Assembly (NCBI GenBank): GCA_035627955.1 | Contig: DASPKU010000006.1 | Coordinates: 248,001 to 312,000, forward strand | DNA from: Phycisphaerales bacterium | GTDB lineage: Bacteria; Planctomycetota; Phycisphaerae; Phycisphaerales; UBA1924 | Direction of reading: 5' to 3' | Length of the DNA stretch: 64,000 nucleotides | Part shown: positions 4,201-13,205 of the stretch, in pieces | Layout of the letters: each line of letters starts with the position of its first letter | Numbering within the stretch: position 1 is the first letter of the stretch | Notes under the pieces: generated by a model | Database searches by the model: none | Seen by the model: only the letters and a program-made list of their open reading frames with translations | Told to the model about the DNA's origin: nothing | Position numbers and translations under genes: made by a program

Positions 4201-4469
4201 GGAATCCCCCGGTGAAAGTTCGGGGAAGTTACCGGCCGCTCGTGAGCCTGTCAAACCTGCAACTGGCGTAGTTTGCGGAGTTTGCAATCCGGTAATGGCG
4301 ACATTGTTGCAAGCTGCGGCGATCGACCCCTTGATCAGCGCCGTCGCCACTCTCGTCCGCTAAAACCGCCCGCGCCGCCGCCCCACCGCACCCAGCGCAA
4401 AAACCGGCCCGAACAAACGCCTCTGAACGGGCACTTTTCCTCGGAGAAATGCAGCGTGATTCCGAGACC

Positions 4470-4637
4470 ACGGAGCATGACGCCGGCATCACAGGGCATT
4501 CCGGGCCCACCACCGAGCATGATGCCGGCACCACGGAGCATGATGGGTGCACTACGGAGCATGACGCAGGCAGCACGGGGCGTGATGCGGGCGGCAGGGG
4601 GTGTGGTGGCGGCGGCAGGGGGCGCGATGGCGATAGA
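4470..4637. repeat. 21-bp tandem repeat, eight units
   Basis: Eight consecutive 21-nt units with consensus close to ACGGAGCATGATGCCGGCACC, degrading toward 4637 into GGC-rich units. The period is a multiple of three, so one plus frame reads a TTEHDAG-like heptad and one minus frame reads a GIMLRGA-like heptad. The gap 4201-4657 otherwise holds no convincing gene. Confidence 0.85.
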
Positions 4638-4657: not shown

Positions 4658-5788
4658 TCATTCGGATGCAACCGGCGGCCGACGAGGAGCCGAGATCCGA
4701 ATCCCTTTCGGCACGTCGAAGGGATAGGTGTCAGGCTCACGAAGACCCTTCACGAATGGGTCGCATAGGTTGATGTCAGGGAAAATCGGGCATCCACCCA
4801 TGCAGGAATGTGCGTTCGCGCATCCGTTGCACCGCCCCTTGGTGAGCTTCTCTCGCACGCCAGCGAATGCGGTGTGCGTTTGCCAAATCGACTGCAGATT
4901 CGTGTCAGTCACCGGAACGCCGTGCCAACTACCCACCATGAAGGAGCACGGGTAGGCCTTCATCTCCTCGGACACGAACATCGAAAAGCGCCCCGCCTCA
5001 CACGCTTCGAACGTAGTTGGAGAGATTGCCGTGTGCCATGCCAATCCAGCCACCATGCAACTGTCAAACCCGATACGGAAGGGCAACCCTGGAGAGGTCG
5101 CCGAGGCGTAAAACGATTTAAGTCGCTCCGCCCCGACAGCCCGTGTGAGACCGGTCTGATCGTTCACGCGAGTGACCGGCTTGAAGTTCAGAAACACCAA
5201 GGCGTTGATGCCATGGAGAAAGCTAGGTGGGTCTCGGAGCCACGCCTCTGCCATTGCGAAGCTGTCATTGCTCAATACAAAGTGAACATTGGCGGCGATC
5301 CCATTCGCCTTCAACAACTGCAGGGCGGCTTCGAACTCCTCCCAGGGCTCATAGGCGCTTACCGCAACGGCACCGCAGAACCTCTTAGTCGCCTCAAGTA
5401 CCTCTGGCGTCAAACCTCTGCCATTCGTGGTATAGGACGGAACAATGCCCATCGACCGAGTAGTTCGAAGAATCTCGGCAAAATCGGGATGCTGGGTAGG
5501 GTTCCCACCACCGATAGCCACTTGGAGCACATCCATTGAGGCCGCCTGCCTAATCAGGGCAGTGTAGTCGGACAAGCGCATATGCACGCCTCTGGGGGTT
5601 GACCCTCGGTAGCAAAATGAGCATCCCTTGTCACACCAGTTAGTGATCGAGATGTCCATCAACTCGGGCCCGTGTCGCGACCACAACGGCTCAGCAGAGC
5701 CCGGGTCTTCGACTCGAGCAAAGAACCCAGTTCTCGGGGAGAACATGGTGGAGTAACCCTGAGACGAGTAATGCCGGATCACTAACAT
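4658..5788 (-). CDS. Radical SAM/SPASM domain protein
   Basis: 376 aa from ATG at 5788. This start has AGGA seven bases upstream; an overlapping GTG at 5803 is the alternative. The radical SAM cluster motif CxxxCxxC is Cys52/56/59 (WCDKGCSFCY). GGGNPTQHPD matches the GGEP-type SAM-binding motif. A C-terminal Cys-rich region (CEAGRFSMF, YPCSFM, then CNGCANAHSCMGGCP) is SPASM/twitch-like and would bind auxiliary Fe-S clusters. SPASM enzymes commonly modify peptides or proteins. It is the last gene of an overlapping operon and directly follows the small FVSNSSS protein, which is therefore a plausible substrate (inference). GC content is visibly lower than in the surrounding genes. Confidence 0.88.
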   Translation of the reverse strand: MLVIRHYSSQGYSTMFSPRTGFFARVEDPGSAEPLWSRHGPELMDISITNWCDKGCSFCYRGSTPRGVHMRLSDYTALIRQAASMDVLQVAIGGGNPTQHPDFAEILRTTRSMGIVPSYTTNGRGLTPEVLEATKRFCGAVAVSAYEPWEEFEAALQLLKANGIAANVHFVLSNDSFAMAEAWLRDPPSFLHGINALVFLNFKPVTRVNDQTGLTRAVGAERLKSFYASATSPGLPFRIGFDSCMVAGLAWHTAISPTTFEACEAGRFSMFVSEEMKAYPCSFMVGSWHGVPVTDTNLQSIWQTHTAFAGVREKLTKGRCNGCANAHSCMGGCPIFPDINLCDPFVKGLREPDTYPFDVPKGIRISAPRRPPVASE

Positions 5789-5796
5789 ATTGTGTC

Positions 5797-6201
5797 CTAC
5801 CACGTGCAGTTGAGCGCGTTGATGTACAATCCATCGTCTTCAAGTTCAAAGCTGTCCATGCACAGGAATGCCTCCGTGGCCTCCCCATCGCTTCCGAGCC
5901 GGCCAACCCGAACCTGGTAGCCCTGCTTGAGAGCTTCTTCGACCTTTGCCACAACTTCCTTCGAAAAGCGTTCACCGACGCCCGCGAGGACACCCTCGGC
6001 TGACTCAACTTTGTAGCGGGCGCTAGCAAGGCTTGAGTTTGTATCTAAGGTCTCGAAGAACCCCTCGACAACACCCCAGAGCGGAGAGCCTTTCGGCACT
6101 CCCATGAGCGCGCCAAGTCGTTCAACACTCCATCCCTGCTTAAGGATGATAATGAACGAGGTGGACGAACTGTTCGAGACGAAGTCACTCCGAATCTTCA
6201 T
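5797..6201 (-). CDS. Small protein with N-terminal MKIRSDFVSNSSSTSFII motif
   Basis: 134 aa from ATG at 6201, with AGAGGA nine bases upstream; an in-frame TTG at 6207 is less likely. The first 18 residues, MKIRSDFVSNSSSTSFII, match a pattern (M-K-x-R-x-D-F-V-x-N-S-S-S-x-S-F) that I recall at the N-terminus of many small uncharacterised bacterial and phage proteins. The rest is a mixed alpha/beta globular sequence with an acidic C-terminal part (SFELEDDGLYINALNCTW). The start overlaps the end of the upstream gene by 17 nt, and the stop lies 8 nt before the radical SAM start, so translation is probably coupled. Function unknown; possibly the substrate of the radical SAM enzyme. Confidence 0.8.
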   Translation of the reverse strand: MKIRSDFVSNSSSTSFIIILKQGWSVERLGALMGVPKGSPLWGVVEGFFETLDTNSSLASARYKVESAEGVLAGVGERFSKEVVAKVEEALKQGYQVRVGRLGSDGEATEAFLCMDSFELEDDGLYINALNCTW

Positions 6202-6643
6202 CTTCAATCATCCTCTGTGCGTCAGCCAGCCGTTCGAGCATGAACCACCCATCGCTCTTCTGCAACCATTCGATGAAACCGTATCCGCCTCCGAGTGAGC
6301 CATCGCAAACACCCAGTGTCCTAGTTTGGCTCAGGAGCTCGTAGACCCTTCGGATCAGCGCATCGTCGAATCCGTGCTTGCTGTAGAGAAAGTCACCGAA
6401 GGACTTATACTCGGCCGAATAGAACCGCTCATAGTGGGCCAGAAGATCGATCCGATGCGCAAAGAGTCCGTACCACACTCTCCGAACGAGCTCGGCCCCC
6501 ATCGTTCCTTTTTTGACCTTTGCGCGGGTGTACAGGTCATCAAGTGATAGGCCTAACGGTGCGACGGTCACTACTGCCGCATACGAAGCAAAATGGATCC
6601 AAACTCCGTCCATCGCTGTGGCCTTCCGCCGAGCTCTGCCCAT
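6185..6643 (-). CDS. Hypothetical protein in the STAND/radical-SAM operon
   Basis: 152 aa from ATG at 6643, preceded by GAGG; a second ATG at 6613 would give 142 aa. The product is mostly helical, with FASYAAVVTVAPLGLSLDD, YERFYSAEYKSFGDFLYSKHGFDD and a Gly-rich GVCDGSLGGGYGFIEWLQKSD segment. It has no signal peptide or membrane segment. The start overlaps the 3' end of the STAND gene and the stop overlaps the next gene, so all four genes form one coupled operon. I do not recognise a family. Confidence 0.7.
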   Translation of the reverse strand: MGRARRKATAMDGVWIHFASYAAVVTVAPLGLSLDDLYTRAKVKKGTMGAELVRRVWYGLFAHRIDLLAHYERFYSAEYKSFGDFLYSKHGFDDALIRRVYELLSQTRTLGVCDGSLGGGYGFIEWLQKSDGWFMLERLADAQRMIEDEDSE

Positions 6644-9600
6644 AGTGCCTCAACCTGCTTCTTATCAAGCGTAAGATGGTTCCGATCCGCCAACTCAACA
6701 AGCGCCTTCTTTCGTGCCGACTCCGTCGATTTGGCCTCGTCGTCATTCAGGCCCTTGGTGTTCGCCGGCCGTTGTGCCAGCTCCTTGATTGGGGGGATGA
6801 TCTTGCCGCCCTCGATCGCCCAGCGCCCAACTAAACCCCATGACGCTGCCTGAGCGTACCCCGGACCTTGTGTCAGGAACTGCGCCATAATCGACTGTGT
6901 GAAGAGCGAGCAACGGCGCCTCAACTTCGCGATCGCATCTGAAGCCGGACCCCAGCTCTTACTCCCGGGAATCGTCAGCATGTATAGAAAGAGCTGGGCT
7001 TCGCCAGGGTCTTCGCGCAATTCGTCGCAGCTACGAGATGTCAAGTCAGCCGCGATTCGATCGAGCAGTACTTCGAACCCTGAACGTTCGTGAGAACGAT
7101 ACCTCCAATGATCATCGCCGAATGCAGCCCGAATAGTTTGCTTGAACTGATCTGGTGTGAGCTGATCGAGTGTCGGGAAAAGGGAGGACAAGTTCAAGTG
7201 CGGGAAACGCTTGACTGATGCCCTTCCGAGAAGCCCGTAAATCACTCGACGCGCTTCATGTGCTCCCCTCATGAAGTAGTCAGCAACCTTGGCAACATCC
7301 TCAGGAACAACTGCGTCGTCTTCCAGGTCGAAGATGCAATCCATGTAGACTTCATCAAAGCCCGGGAAAGAGGAGAGCGCACCCAAGAGGGTGGCCGCGT
7401 TTTCTCGTCTCCCAATCAAAAAAAGGAAGCGTCCTGCTCCCTCGGCGCACGTGGAATGCCGGTCTAGAACGGCTGTGAGTAGCTCGCTGGTCCTTTGCGG
7501 GTCCTGCTTCCAAAGCGGACCGGCTAGGTGCTCGGCAAGGCAGTAATCACGCATTTCATCAAACGTAAACGCGATAACGTCCCCGTCACCCGAAAGGGGC
7601 GATGCGGGCGCAAGGTCCCGTCGCAGTACGAGCTCTTCTTGAAGCAGCAACTCCAAGCCATCGAGGTGTTCCTGCGGAAGGGCGTCGAGCGGCACACTAG
7701 TGAAGTCCCTGCGATCGAGCATCGCGCTGACAATCGATACGACGGCACGTCGTAGTCGCGAAGCTGCCGAGGCCGCATGTGCTGGGACGAGGGATTCTGC
7801 CGCGTCCAGCTTGCGGCGGAAGAATTCCCTGTACAGGCGCTCTTTGTGCAGGTGAGTGAGGGAGGGATGTGGTGCGGAGCGGCATCCGGGAACCGGAGCA
7901 TAAGCCTCGCAATAGGTACGTAACAGAAGTGGATTCGACCGCAGTTCCTCAAACACGCCTCCTGCTACGCTTTCGATCTCGATGCCGAAGTACCGGAAAT
8001 ACCGCCACACCATGTCTTTCGACTGCTGTGCCGACAGCTCCCTTACTGGTTCGGACAACCTAGCCACCTGAGTGGACGTCTCGGCGTACGTGACAAGGTT
8101 CGAAAAGCGCGCGTCAAAGTACTCCGCACGACAACTCAGCAGGACTCGCACCCATTCGCTGGCGTTCAGTCGTACGAGCATCTGCTCGATCGCTGGGGCG
8201 AGCAACGCAAGGTCTGAATGCTCGTTCAGGCCGTCGATCATGATGAGTAACGGTTTGCCTGAGTCCCTCGCGAGTGACTCCAGATCGGCCCAAACGCGAG
8301 CGGACTCATTCTGAGCCCTGAGGCCGAAGACGGATTGCAGTAAGAACACCTCCAGTGGACCGCCTGTCCACGCTCTCAGGTCGCGTCCCGTGAAATGAAA
8401 GTACGCGATCCCTCGCGGCTGTAAGACGCGTTCAGCGAGATCGCACAAAAAGCTGGTCTTGCCGCGGCCTGCGTTGGCAGTCAAGAAGACGACGCGTGCC
8501 TGAGAGAACGCGAGCCACTCCTGCTGTTCTTCGACCCAGTTGCGAGCGGGGTACGCGTCATCGCGGAGCCTGTACCGGATCTCGTCGAAGCGGTAACGTG
8601 TCTTCTGGGGGATTTTGGTCTCAAGTCCGGTTTGCCCCTCTGCGAAACACTCCTCGAGAATCGCTCGGACCTGTTGCAAACGAAAGTCGATTGCTGAAGC
8701 GAGCGGGGCTACTCCGTCCAGAGTGCGCGGTGTCTGCAAGTGTGGATCGATCAAGGCGCCGACGGGCGAGAGTCCTACTTGGCGCAGTCGCCTATCCACC
8801 TCGGTAAGCACTTGTCGGTTAAGTGCCTCCACCAGCACCTCTAGCCCCCACCGTGGGTCAGTGAAGGCGCGGCATAAATCCTTCTGGCGTGGTGACTCGG
8901 CGAACAACTGTGGGATGTACTTCTTCGAACGGATTTCTCTTTGCAGCTGCCCGTGCTGGTGCGACTTGAGTTGAAGCGTGACCGAGCTGGCGATAGCCGC
9001 CGCTTCTGAGGGGAGTTGCAACTCGAGACCTGGCGGTTGCCGCTCTTTGATCATTGGAATCGTGATGAGACCGCCAGCCTTTGCCACCTCAGCGCATCGC
9101 GTGTAGATCCAGTCCCGGAGCACCGACGGCGCGATGGACGAACCTCTTGGGAGCAAGGACCTCGCTTTATCCAAGTCGTTGGCTTCGTCGGCCCCCCCCG
9201 TGATGCCGTGGTCAAAGTGAATGATGACTAGAGACCGGAGAAAACTCCAAACGGTCCGTTGCGCAGGGATGCGCTTTGTGAACTTCCTAATAAAGTGAGT
9301 GACGAGTTCGACGTGCGCGTGTGTCGATCTGAACTTCTGTACCTGTCGAAAGAAAGAGGTCGCGTCGTGTTCGCGCGCCCAGAGTGTCATTTCCCGAAAG
9401 TGTCGAACACTGTCAGACGCCGAACCTACGTCGATCGCGAAACCGATCCGATCAACCCCGGTGTGGAAGCTTGGGGAGTTGAACTCGCTCCAGCATTGGC
9501 GCAGGCCGGACTCGAAGGCGAGATTGCTCTTGGTGAGCGAGAGCCCATGTTTGACCTGCAGGAAGAGACGTTCGCGACGGTTCTGATCCTGAGTATGAAC

Positions 9601-9846
9601 GTGGATGTCATCAACGAAGTGGCCTTGGTTACGGCGCTGAAGGCCAACAGCGACGATCAGCCCGCCTTCGGGGCCGCGAGGTGTTGCGGCTGCAAGCATG
9701 TGAAGGACGTACGACGTAGCCACGGACAGTTCGAAGACAGTGCCACCGCCGCCTGTGGCGAAGGGGCTCACAGGCGAGGGAGCAGCTTGAGGGGTCTTGG
9801 CCCGCGTCGCTCTGGTGTGTGCCTTGCCGGCCATCTTGGGGAGCAT
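6571..9846 (-). CDS. STAND NTPase with N-terminal DUF4297/Cap4-like nuclease domain, candidate antiphage protein
   Basis: About 1091 aa from ATG at 9846; TTG 9873 and ATG 9834 are alternatives with no decisive ribosome binding site. Residues about 30-200 look like a DUF4297/Cap4-type PD-(D/E)xK nuclease: TGGGGTVFE, FVDDIHVH and LFLQVKHG supply the E, D and QxK residues. A linker holds KYIPQLFAES. The NTPase follows, with Walker A ANAGRGKTS near 460, Walker B LLIMIDGLNEH near 540 and a following LLSCRAEYFD strand, as in NACHT/STAND proteins. The remaining ~500 residues are helical and would be the sensor. This domain order is known in Avs-type antiphage STAND proteins, which sense viral proteins and cut DNA. 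Lower GC than flanks suggests acquisition. Confidence 0.8.
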   Translation of the reverse strand: MLPKMAGKAHTRATRAKTPQAAPSPVSPFATGGGGTVFELSVATSYVLHMLAAATPRGPEGGLIVAVGLQRRNQGHFVDDIHVHTQDQNRRERLFLQVKHGLSLTKSNLAFESGLRQCWSEFNSPSFHTGVDRIGFAIDVGSASDSVRHFREMTLWAREHDATSFFRQVQKFRSTHAHVELVTHFIRKFTKRIPAQRTVWSFLRSLVIIHFDHGITGGADEANDLDKARSLLPRGSSIAPSVLRDWIYTRCAEVAKAGGLITIPMIKERQPPGLELQLPSEAAAIASSVTLQLKSHQHGQLQREIRSKKYIPQLFAESPRQKDLCRAFTDPRWGLEVLVEALNRQVLTEVDRRLRQVGLSPVGALIDPHLQTPRTLDGVAPLASAIDFRLQQVRAILEECFAEGQTGLETKIPQKTRYRFDEIRYRLRDDAYPARNWVEEQQEWLAFSQARVVFLTANAGRGKTSFLCDLAERVLQPRGIAYFHFTGRDLRAWTGGPLEVFLLQSVFGLRAQNESARVWADLESLARDSGKPLLIMIDGLNEHSDLALLAPAIEQMLVRLNASEWVRVLLSCRAEYFDARFSNLVTYAETSTQVARLSEPVRELSAQQSKDMVWRYFRYFGIEIESVAGGVFEELRSNPLLLRTYCEAYAPVPGCRSAPHPSLTHLHKERLYREFFRRKLDAAESLVPAHAASAASRLRRAVVSIVSAMLDRRDFTSVPLDALPQEHLDGLELLLQEELVLRRDLAPASPLSGDGDVIAFTFDEMRDYCLAEHLAGPLWKQDPQRTSELLTAVLDRHSTCAEGAGRFLFLIGRRENAATLLGALSSFPGFDEVYMDCIFDLEDDAVVPEDVAKVADYFMRGAHEARRVIYGLLGRASVKRFPHLNLSSLFPTLDQLTPDQFKQTIRAAFGDDHWRYRSHERSGFEVLLDRIAADLTSRSCDELREDPGEAQLFLYMLTIPGSKSWGPASDAIAKLRRRCSLFTQSIMAQFLTQGPGYAQAASWGLVGRWAIEGGKIIPPIKELAQRPANTKGLNDDEAKSTESARKKALVELADRNHLTLDKKQVEALWAELGGRPQRWTEFGSILLRMRQ

Positions 9847-9932
9847 ACCAGACCGAAGAAAGCTGCGGCCCAAGTGCGGCCATGTCCCTCCCTGCCGGTC
9901 GGGCTACCTGCTTGGTGATAGAGGGGCGCGGA

Positions 9933-13083: not shown

Positions 13084-13112
13084 GGGCAGGACGGGGTTGC
13101 ACTTGCCGAGGA

Positions 13113-13205
13113 GGCACACCGGTCAGGAGACCGGTGCCACCAAAGGCATACCGGTCAGGAGACCGGTGCCACCGAAGGCACACCGGTCAGGAGACCGGTG
13201 CCACC
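13113..13205. repeat. Three tandem 32-bp palindromic units
   Basis: Units start at 13113, 13145 and 13177 and are nearly identical. Each contains the hairpin ACCGGTC-AGGA-GACCGGT followed by GCCACC. There is no unique spacer between units, so this is a REP-like cluster and not a CRISPR array. The last codons of the neighbouring dehydrogenase lie within the third unit. Confidence 0.85.

Follow-up and report, generated by a model that had tools for sequence, protein, structure and literature searches.

A nearly invariant N-terminal tag on unrelated proteins and its radical SAM/SPASM partner, the predicted tag-modifying enzyme, in phages and in a bacterial STAND NTPase cassette

Why does a small bacterial protein begin with a serine-rich segment that hardly varies among its relatives, and why does its gene end just short of a gene for a radical S-adenosylmethionine (SAM) enzyme with a SPASM domain? 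This question is raised by the window, a stretch of 64,000 nucleotides from a Phycisphaerales bacterium (assembly GCA_035627955.1, contig DASPKU010000006.1, positions 248,001 to 312,000), in which the small protein, called NSSS here, and the enzyme are encoded side by side. It is probable, taking the explanation as a whole, that the enzyme modifies the tag at the N-terminus of NSSS and that the two belong to a four-gene conflict-type cassette with an Avs2-like STAND NTPase. That the enzyme and the tag form an enzyme-substrate pair is very likely. The features on which this answer depends, numbered from the first letter of the window, are as follows.

5797..6201, minus strand: NSSS protein, 134 amino acids, a 16-residue tag followed by a small alpha/beta body (translation; 34 relatives aligned; AlphaFold model)
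6154..6201, minus strand: conserved N-terminal tag, residues 1-16, MKIRSDFVSNSSSTSF (alignment, model, tag statistics)
4658..5788, minus strand: radical SAM/SPASM enzyme, 376 amino acids, the putative modifier of the tag (domain searches, sequence profile)
5612..5635, minus strand: CxxxCxxC (C52-C59), the SAM-binding [4Fe-4S] motif (sequence; Radical_SAM PF04055)
4784..5002, minus strand: SPASM domain, C-x2-C-x5-C-x3-C, for auxiliary Fe-S clusters (TIGR04085)

The NSSS open reading frame (ORF) runs from an ATG at 6201 to a stop at 5797, and its product starts with MKIRSDFVSNSSSTSFII. The ATG of the enzyme lies at 5788, leaving exactly 8 nt (5789-5796) between the two genes, and is preceded on its 5' side by the purine-rich stretch AGAGGATGA. 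Translation confirms the original prediction of an ORF with an FVSNSSSTSF-type start whose stop falls 8 nt before a SPASM enzyme. The enzyme matches Radical_SAM PF04055 at 5e-15 and carries the CxxxCxxC motif of this domain, and its match to SPASM TIGR04085 (9e-8, 32.5 bits) exceeds the curated cut-off of 27. It falls far below the cut-off of every named NCBIfam peptide maturase, including MftC, GeoRSP, PqqE, WgkB and others (best 61.2 versus 265 bits). When the sequence profile of the enzyme is compared with the PDB, SuiB (1e-10) and SkfB (2e-9) come first, followed by BtrN and PqqE. An imperfect tandem array of 21/42-bp repeats (4453-4632) lies directly downstream of the enzyme gene, ahead of a 702-amino-acid gene of unknown function.

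The tag is almost unchanging, with the short form MKIRxDFVTNSSSSSF, and is N-terminal on otherwise unrelated small proteins. The 330 distinct proteins collected give the consensus M-K-I-R/K-x-D/G-F/Y-V-T/S-N-S-S-S-S/T-S-F/Y, in agreement with the original remark that the pattern is common in many small proteins. In a check against circular choice, in which proteins were picked by the flank M-K-x-R/K-x-x-F-V alone (n = 298), N10-S11 is present in 297, S12 in 295 and S13 in 289, and position 14 varies. Both serine codon classes, TCN and AGY, are used at every position from 11 to 15, indicating that selection acts on the protein. The bodies behind the tag, clustered from residue 20 by single linkage at E 1e-4, form 83 clusters between which no similarity is detectable. 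Viral genes with the motif stand in tandem arrays of up to eight per stretch, which encode the same first 16 residues and different bodies.

The tag is also found on the enzyme itself. A diverged form of the tag, HATNSSS(S/T)HS, was approached through a separate search of 29 ORFs with HATNSSS; all four viral cases with the full form are the N-terminus of a radical SAM protein of the enzyme family, 424-531 amino acids long, and the remaining 25 are unrelated. An enzyme encoded on a Methylobacterium plasmid has the same fusion of the diverged tag to its own N-terminus. In a quick tree with long branches, the tag-fused enzymes form one deep clade, the enzymes of the phage arrays lie in other clades, and those of the STAND cassettes form one clade with a single viral contig inside. 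Two phage copies of the enzyme (L058:3795-6131 and L079:3159-5519) are split after '...FQC' by about 420 amino acids that end in HNC and look like inteins. In four viral contigs (L082, L094, L098, L110) the enzyme match has one in-frame stop (TAG, TGA or TAA), perhaps reflecting stop-codon recoding in some large phages.

These properties bear on the possibility that the tag serves for docking only, binding the enzyme or another common partner while remaining unaltered; the target of the enzyme would then be a residue elsewhere in the body, a third protein or a small molecule. Binding at one segment and modification at another is common among radical SAM maturases, as is generally known for the leader peptides of ribosomally synthesised and post-translationally modified peptides (RiPPs). 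Tag residues 14 and 15 do vary, and fusion of the tag to the enzyme in one clade is what might be seen for a docking or autoregulatory peptide. However, the bodies would hardly share a target residue, because the 83 clusters have no detectable similarity, and the only chemistry that they have in common lies in the tag. Furthermore, N10, S11 and S12 are practically invariant, more so than is usual for docking segments. Docking without modification is therefore considered unlikely. The original prediction had regarded a conserved motif ahead of a variable body as a recognition or modification site; judged from sequence, this idea fits well with a tag that is invariant over 83 body clusters and, in its diverged form, fused to the enzyme.

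The AlphaFold model of NSSS has a mean predicted local distance difference test (pLDDT) of 87 and a predicted template modelling score (pTM) of 0.82. The predicted fold of the body starts at about residue 11, residues 1-10 of the tag have low confidence or are disordered (pLDDT 51), and the first strand spans residues 13-20. The model finds no significant fold match in BFVD or the PDB; its best Z is 3.3, and a match this weak is compatible with a known fold. Neither NSSS nor p152, the product of the gene upstream, has a significant match in Pfam, NCBIfam or PADLOC. C114 is nearly invariant within the bacterial cassette family of NSSS (alignment of 34 relatives). A crosslink between a tag residue and C114 was considered and dropped, because most phage bodies are unrelated to those of the bacterial cassettes.

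A second explanation is that NSSS is a RiPP precursor, its tag or body being the leader and a small modified peptide being cut out and exported. SuiB and SkfB, the SPASM enzymes of solved structure that are nearest by sequence, are both RiPP maturases. However, the conserved part is located at the extreme N-terminus rather than C-terminal to a leader, the predicted folded body (pLDDT 87) co-varies with the STAND NTPase (r 0.95), and there is no peptidase or transporter among the cassette genes. A protein of 134 amino acids with such a body, and with no protease gene in its cassette, does not correspond to a short leader/core precursor that is processed by a protease. This explanation is very improbable. 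The proposal of an enzyme-substrate pair of a modified peptide or protein is partly supported. The strong association described below favours the pairing, whereas 'peptide' is unlikely in view of the fold predicted for NSSS beyond about residue 11 and of a cassette that lacks a protease or exporter.

The motif and the enzyme occur together with few exceptions. A scan of bacteria for the enzyme, with one genome per species, gives 37 loci, distributed over Cyanobacteria, Planctomycetes, Verrucomicrobia, Bacteroidota, Pseudomonadota, Campylobacterota, Thermodesulfobacteriota and others. An NSSS gene lies directly upstream of the enzyme in 35 of them; in the remaining two (L032, L038) the contig ends within the enzyme gene. 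Genome-wide motif scans covered 34 cassette genomes and one sample of the window's phylum (294 genomes). The degenerate motif pattern is found in the 34 cassette genomes only at the cassette, apart from two chance hits (FIWNRSTSSF, FVRNCCSSSF), and the same pattern read backwards as a control gives zero hits. The motif lies well outside chance expectation: among the 294 phylum genomes the pattern matches three, namely the window gene and two unlike strings (FVRNSSTCCF, FVSNSTTSTF); the motif and the enzyme (E <= 1e-35) occur once each, both in the genome of the window.

Viruses give the same picture in both directions. Two motif patterns, run against viral contigs, picked out 66 distinct contigs, many longer than 100 kb, of which 60 carry the enzyme; the six others are linear fragments of 20-66 kb. 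For 23 contigs without the enzyme in the fetched stretch, a search of the whole contig found it in 17. Conversely, in the best 80 of 317 viral enzyme loci, a strict-motif gene lies within 10 kb of the enzyme in 68, variants (HVTNSSSSSF, FVTNSSSTCY, FVTNSSSTFF, FVTNSSSSAF) are found in five more (L164, L169, L188, L195, L196), and three (L119, L145, L151) are contig ends or short. NrdG, an unrelated phage radical SAM enzyme taken as a control, has the motif at 0 of 25 loci. In cultured Straboviridae, the enzyme is present in 167 records, nearly all from Enterobacteriaceae phages of the RB43/KP15 kind, and relatives of the RB16 protein p111 in 175 records with the same host genera, the two lists being compared by host genera. 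In RB16, both tagged proteins (p106 and p111) are encoded about 20 kb away from the enzyme, p156; they were found by reading ORFs, as a loose short pattern is swamped by chance hits in RB16 and KP27. The PHROGs families of the RB16 enzyme and motif protein, phrog_7293 and phrog_7397, are both annotated as 'unknown function'. The association of the motif with radical SAM genes, which had been set beforehand as a test of the prediction, thus holds strongly in both directions in bacteria, viral contigs and cultured phages.

A third explanation assigns the tag an independent function in N-terminal stability, membrane or capsid association, or translation initiation, with the enzyme merely sharing operons. 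Its support comes from RB16 and several phages with tag genes tens of kilobases from the enzyme. This separation means that tagged proteins need not adjoin the enzyme. Against this explanation, co-occurrence that is retained in spite of separate location points to functional coupling rather than hitch-hiking. The fusion of tag and enzyme and the genome-wide exclusivity would go unexplained, and the use of both serine codon classes argues against a nucleotide signal. An independent function of the tag is the least probable of the three alternatives, and modification of the tag by the enzyme is preferred.

In bacteria, the pair is part of a conserved cassette with the order STAND - p152 - NSSS - enzyme, in which the genes overlap or nearly touch. 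The original prediction had seen the NSSS-enzyme pair but missed the other two genes of the cassette, as well as the phage arrays. In the window these two genes are:

6185..6643, minus strand: p152, a motif-less paralog of the NSSS body, with an uncertain start codon and overlapping both neighbours (profile comparison)
6571..9873, minus strand: Avs2-like STAND (NACHT-type) NTPase, 1100 amino acids, with an N-terminal part of about 300 amino acids matched by no model (domain models)

A STAND NTPase related to that of the window is found two genes upstream of the enzyme in 33 loci. Roseovarius albus is one species with a whole cassette. Between STAND and NSSS lies a gene of about 120-150 amino acids related to p152, its frame being uncertain in L024 under a simple ORF rule. 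Profile-profile comparison relates p152 to the NSSS family over residues 10-101 (probability 97%, E 1.3e-10); the AlphaFold model of p152 (pLDDT 81) has no match in the PDB. Avs2 models match the STAND core, though only along part of its length (PADLOC 3e-21). The N-terminal domains of the STAND proteins are exchanged between cassettes and include a PNP phosphorylase (L011), SMEK (L012, L034, L017), NNH5 (L015) and others; the SMEK domain also occurs in Argonaute-associated nuclease models. In the window, the segment VDDIHV...LQVKH of this N-terminal part is read by eye, not by a tool, as PD-(D/E)xK-nuclease-like. Exchangeable effector domains and a patchy spread over phyla are usual for STANDs of defence systems. 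Two other layouts exist: three tandem NSSS proteins stand ahead of the enzyme in a deltaproteobacterial contig (L033:7360-9698), an array-like arrangement in which no STAND gene was found, and the order helix-turn-helix gene - NSSS - enzyme occurs in Lachnospiraceae-type elements, bacterial or mobile (L036, L149). Elsewhere in the window, a 32-bp repeat, AGGCACACCGGTCAGGAGACCGGTGCCACCAA, is present in 2.9 copies with 95% identity at the end of an acyl-CoA-dehydrogenase-like gene (13112-13205).

Pairwise distances of the four cassette proteins correlate with r 0.84-0.95, the value for the NSSS body and STAND being 0.95. The enzyme evolves most slowly (mean distance 0.42), and the NSSS body, p152 and the C-terminal part of STAND are about equally fast (0.66-0.71). 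Such rates would be expected if contact of the enzyme were confined to the constant tag and the body had STAND and p152 as its working partners. It is fairly likely that the cassette is a defence system, and it would then act against phages or other mobile elements.

Several observations weigh against the proposed role of the pair and of the cassette. Correlated distances also follow from simple co-inheritance. The Avs2 likeness is partial, at 42.8 versus 1000 bits for NCBIfam NF041813, so that the STAND protein does not qualify as a full-length Avs2. Around the cassette in the window no defence genes were recognised, and of ten large neighbours elsewhere only three matched PADLOC models. At four phage enzyme loci (L177, L194, L197, L198), no motif gene could be recognised in the flanking sequence that was retrieved. 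The C-terminal SPASM cysteines are missing from one phage subfamily of the enzyme (L099, L105, L109, L112), which means that the full SPASM set is not required by all members.

The cassette resembles several known systems and differs from each. RaS-RiPP and sactipeptide maturases (SuiB, SkfB) and PqqE likewise have a radical SAM core, SPASM-type auxiliary clusters and an adjacent gene for a ribosomal substrate, but the partner here is a protein with a predicted folded body, its N-terminal tag is common to many unrelated bodies, there is no leader/core, peptidase or exporter, and the system occurs chiefly in phages and alongside a STAND NTPase. Anaerobic sulfatase maturases (anSME) are likewise SPASM radical SAM enzymes, and they oxidise serine or cysteine in a protein substrate. 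They act at S/C-x-P/A-x-R inside sulfatases, whereas this motif is absent from the tag and the tagged bodies are not sulfatases. Prokaryotic viperins (pVips) are radical SAM enzymes in an antiviral setting, which is predicted here, and the window enzyme has a weak PADLOC match to them over the core (1e-11). However, pVips make modified nucleotides and are without SPASM, whereas the window enzyme has SPASM and a protein partner and, at 35.5 versus 180 bits for NF038283, falls short of a viperin. AVAST type 2 (Avs2) has a matching STAND core and exchangeable N-terminal effector domains; the cassette differs in its partial coverage, far below the NCBIfam cut-off, and in three extra conserved genes including the enzyme. 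In the open-access part of PubMed Central (PMC), the only near neighbour found in the literature on radical SAM with STAND, NACHT, SMEK, RiPPs or defence is the work on FxSxx systems, in which FxSxx peptides and radical SAM/SPASM enzymes belong to VMAP ternary conflict systems that include a peptidase, MPTase, and vWA proteins are central (Kaur et al. 2020, PMC7159879). Both cases combine a radical SAM/SPASM enzyme with a small ribosomal substrate in a predicted conflict system. The cassette described here differs by its N-terminal NSSS tag and its STAND NTPase, has no protease or peptidase, exporter, vWA or VMAP gene among its conserved members, and is thus not an FxSxx/VMAP system. RB16 encodes a vWA-domain-like protein, p109 (NC_014467.1 67920-70139), between its two tagged genes, a possible link to the systems of Kaur et al.

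How might the modification work? The modified site would most likely lie in the flexible, invariant N10-S11-S12-(S13), just ahead of the first beta-strand. Candidate chemistries at N10-S13 are serine or asparagine oxidation, epimerisation or an intramolecular link, and F7-V8-T/S9 (aromatic, any, Ser/Thr) would also suit a three-residue cyclophane; cyclophane formation, Ser epimerisation and Ser oxidation are all possible. The tag would be a portable modification site through which one enzyme family would serve many unrelated bodies. In the cassette, modified NSSS and p152 may be accessory or sensing subunits, or a guarded partner, of the Avs2-like STAND NTPase, the exchangeable N-terminal domain of which would be the effector. 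The same mark would be placed on an entire set of small phage proteins. A wider scheme is conceivable, although we hold it only tentatively: one enzyme would place a mark on the same 16-residue tag of unrelated phage proteins, up to eight in tandem, as a general N-terminal tagging system, and bacteria would have taken one tagged protein and the enzyme into an NLR-like STAND immune cassette, where sensing would depend in part on the modified tag or on its absence in the course of infection.

A radical SAM/SPASM enzyme with a ribosomal substrate is already known; as far as the tools used here show, no tag common to unrelated proteins of phages and of a STAND cassette has been described. No published account of FVSNSSS/NSSSSSF-type tagged proteins, and none of the RB16/RB43 radical SAM enzyme, was found in open-access PMC; most subscription papers and preprints lie outside this coverage, and absence there is not proof. 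To our knowledge, each known radical SAM maturase of peptides is dedicated to a single precursor or a single family of proteins. The enzyme family described here seems to serve a portable tag on 83 body clusters, in cultured T4-like phages (RB16, RB43, KP15, KP27), in large uncultured phages and in a STAND cassette over many phyla, and there is a real chance that the tag-enzyme system is a separate category. The proposal is directly testable with E. coli phages already in collections. If true, it would assign a function to a large set of phage proteins that lack annotation and would add a post-translational modification to NLR-like bacterial immunity.
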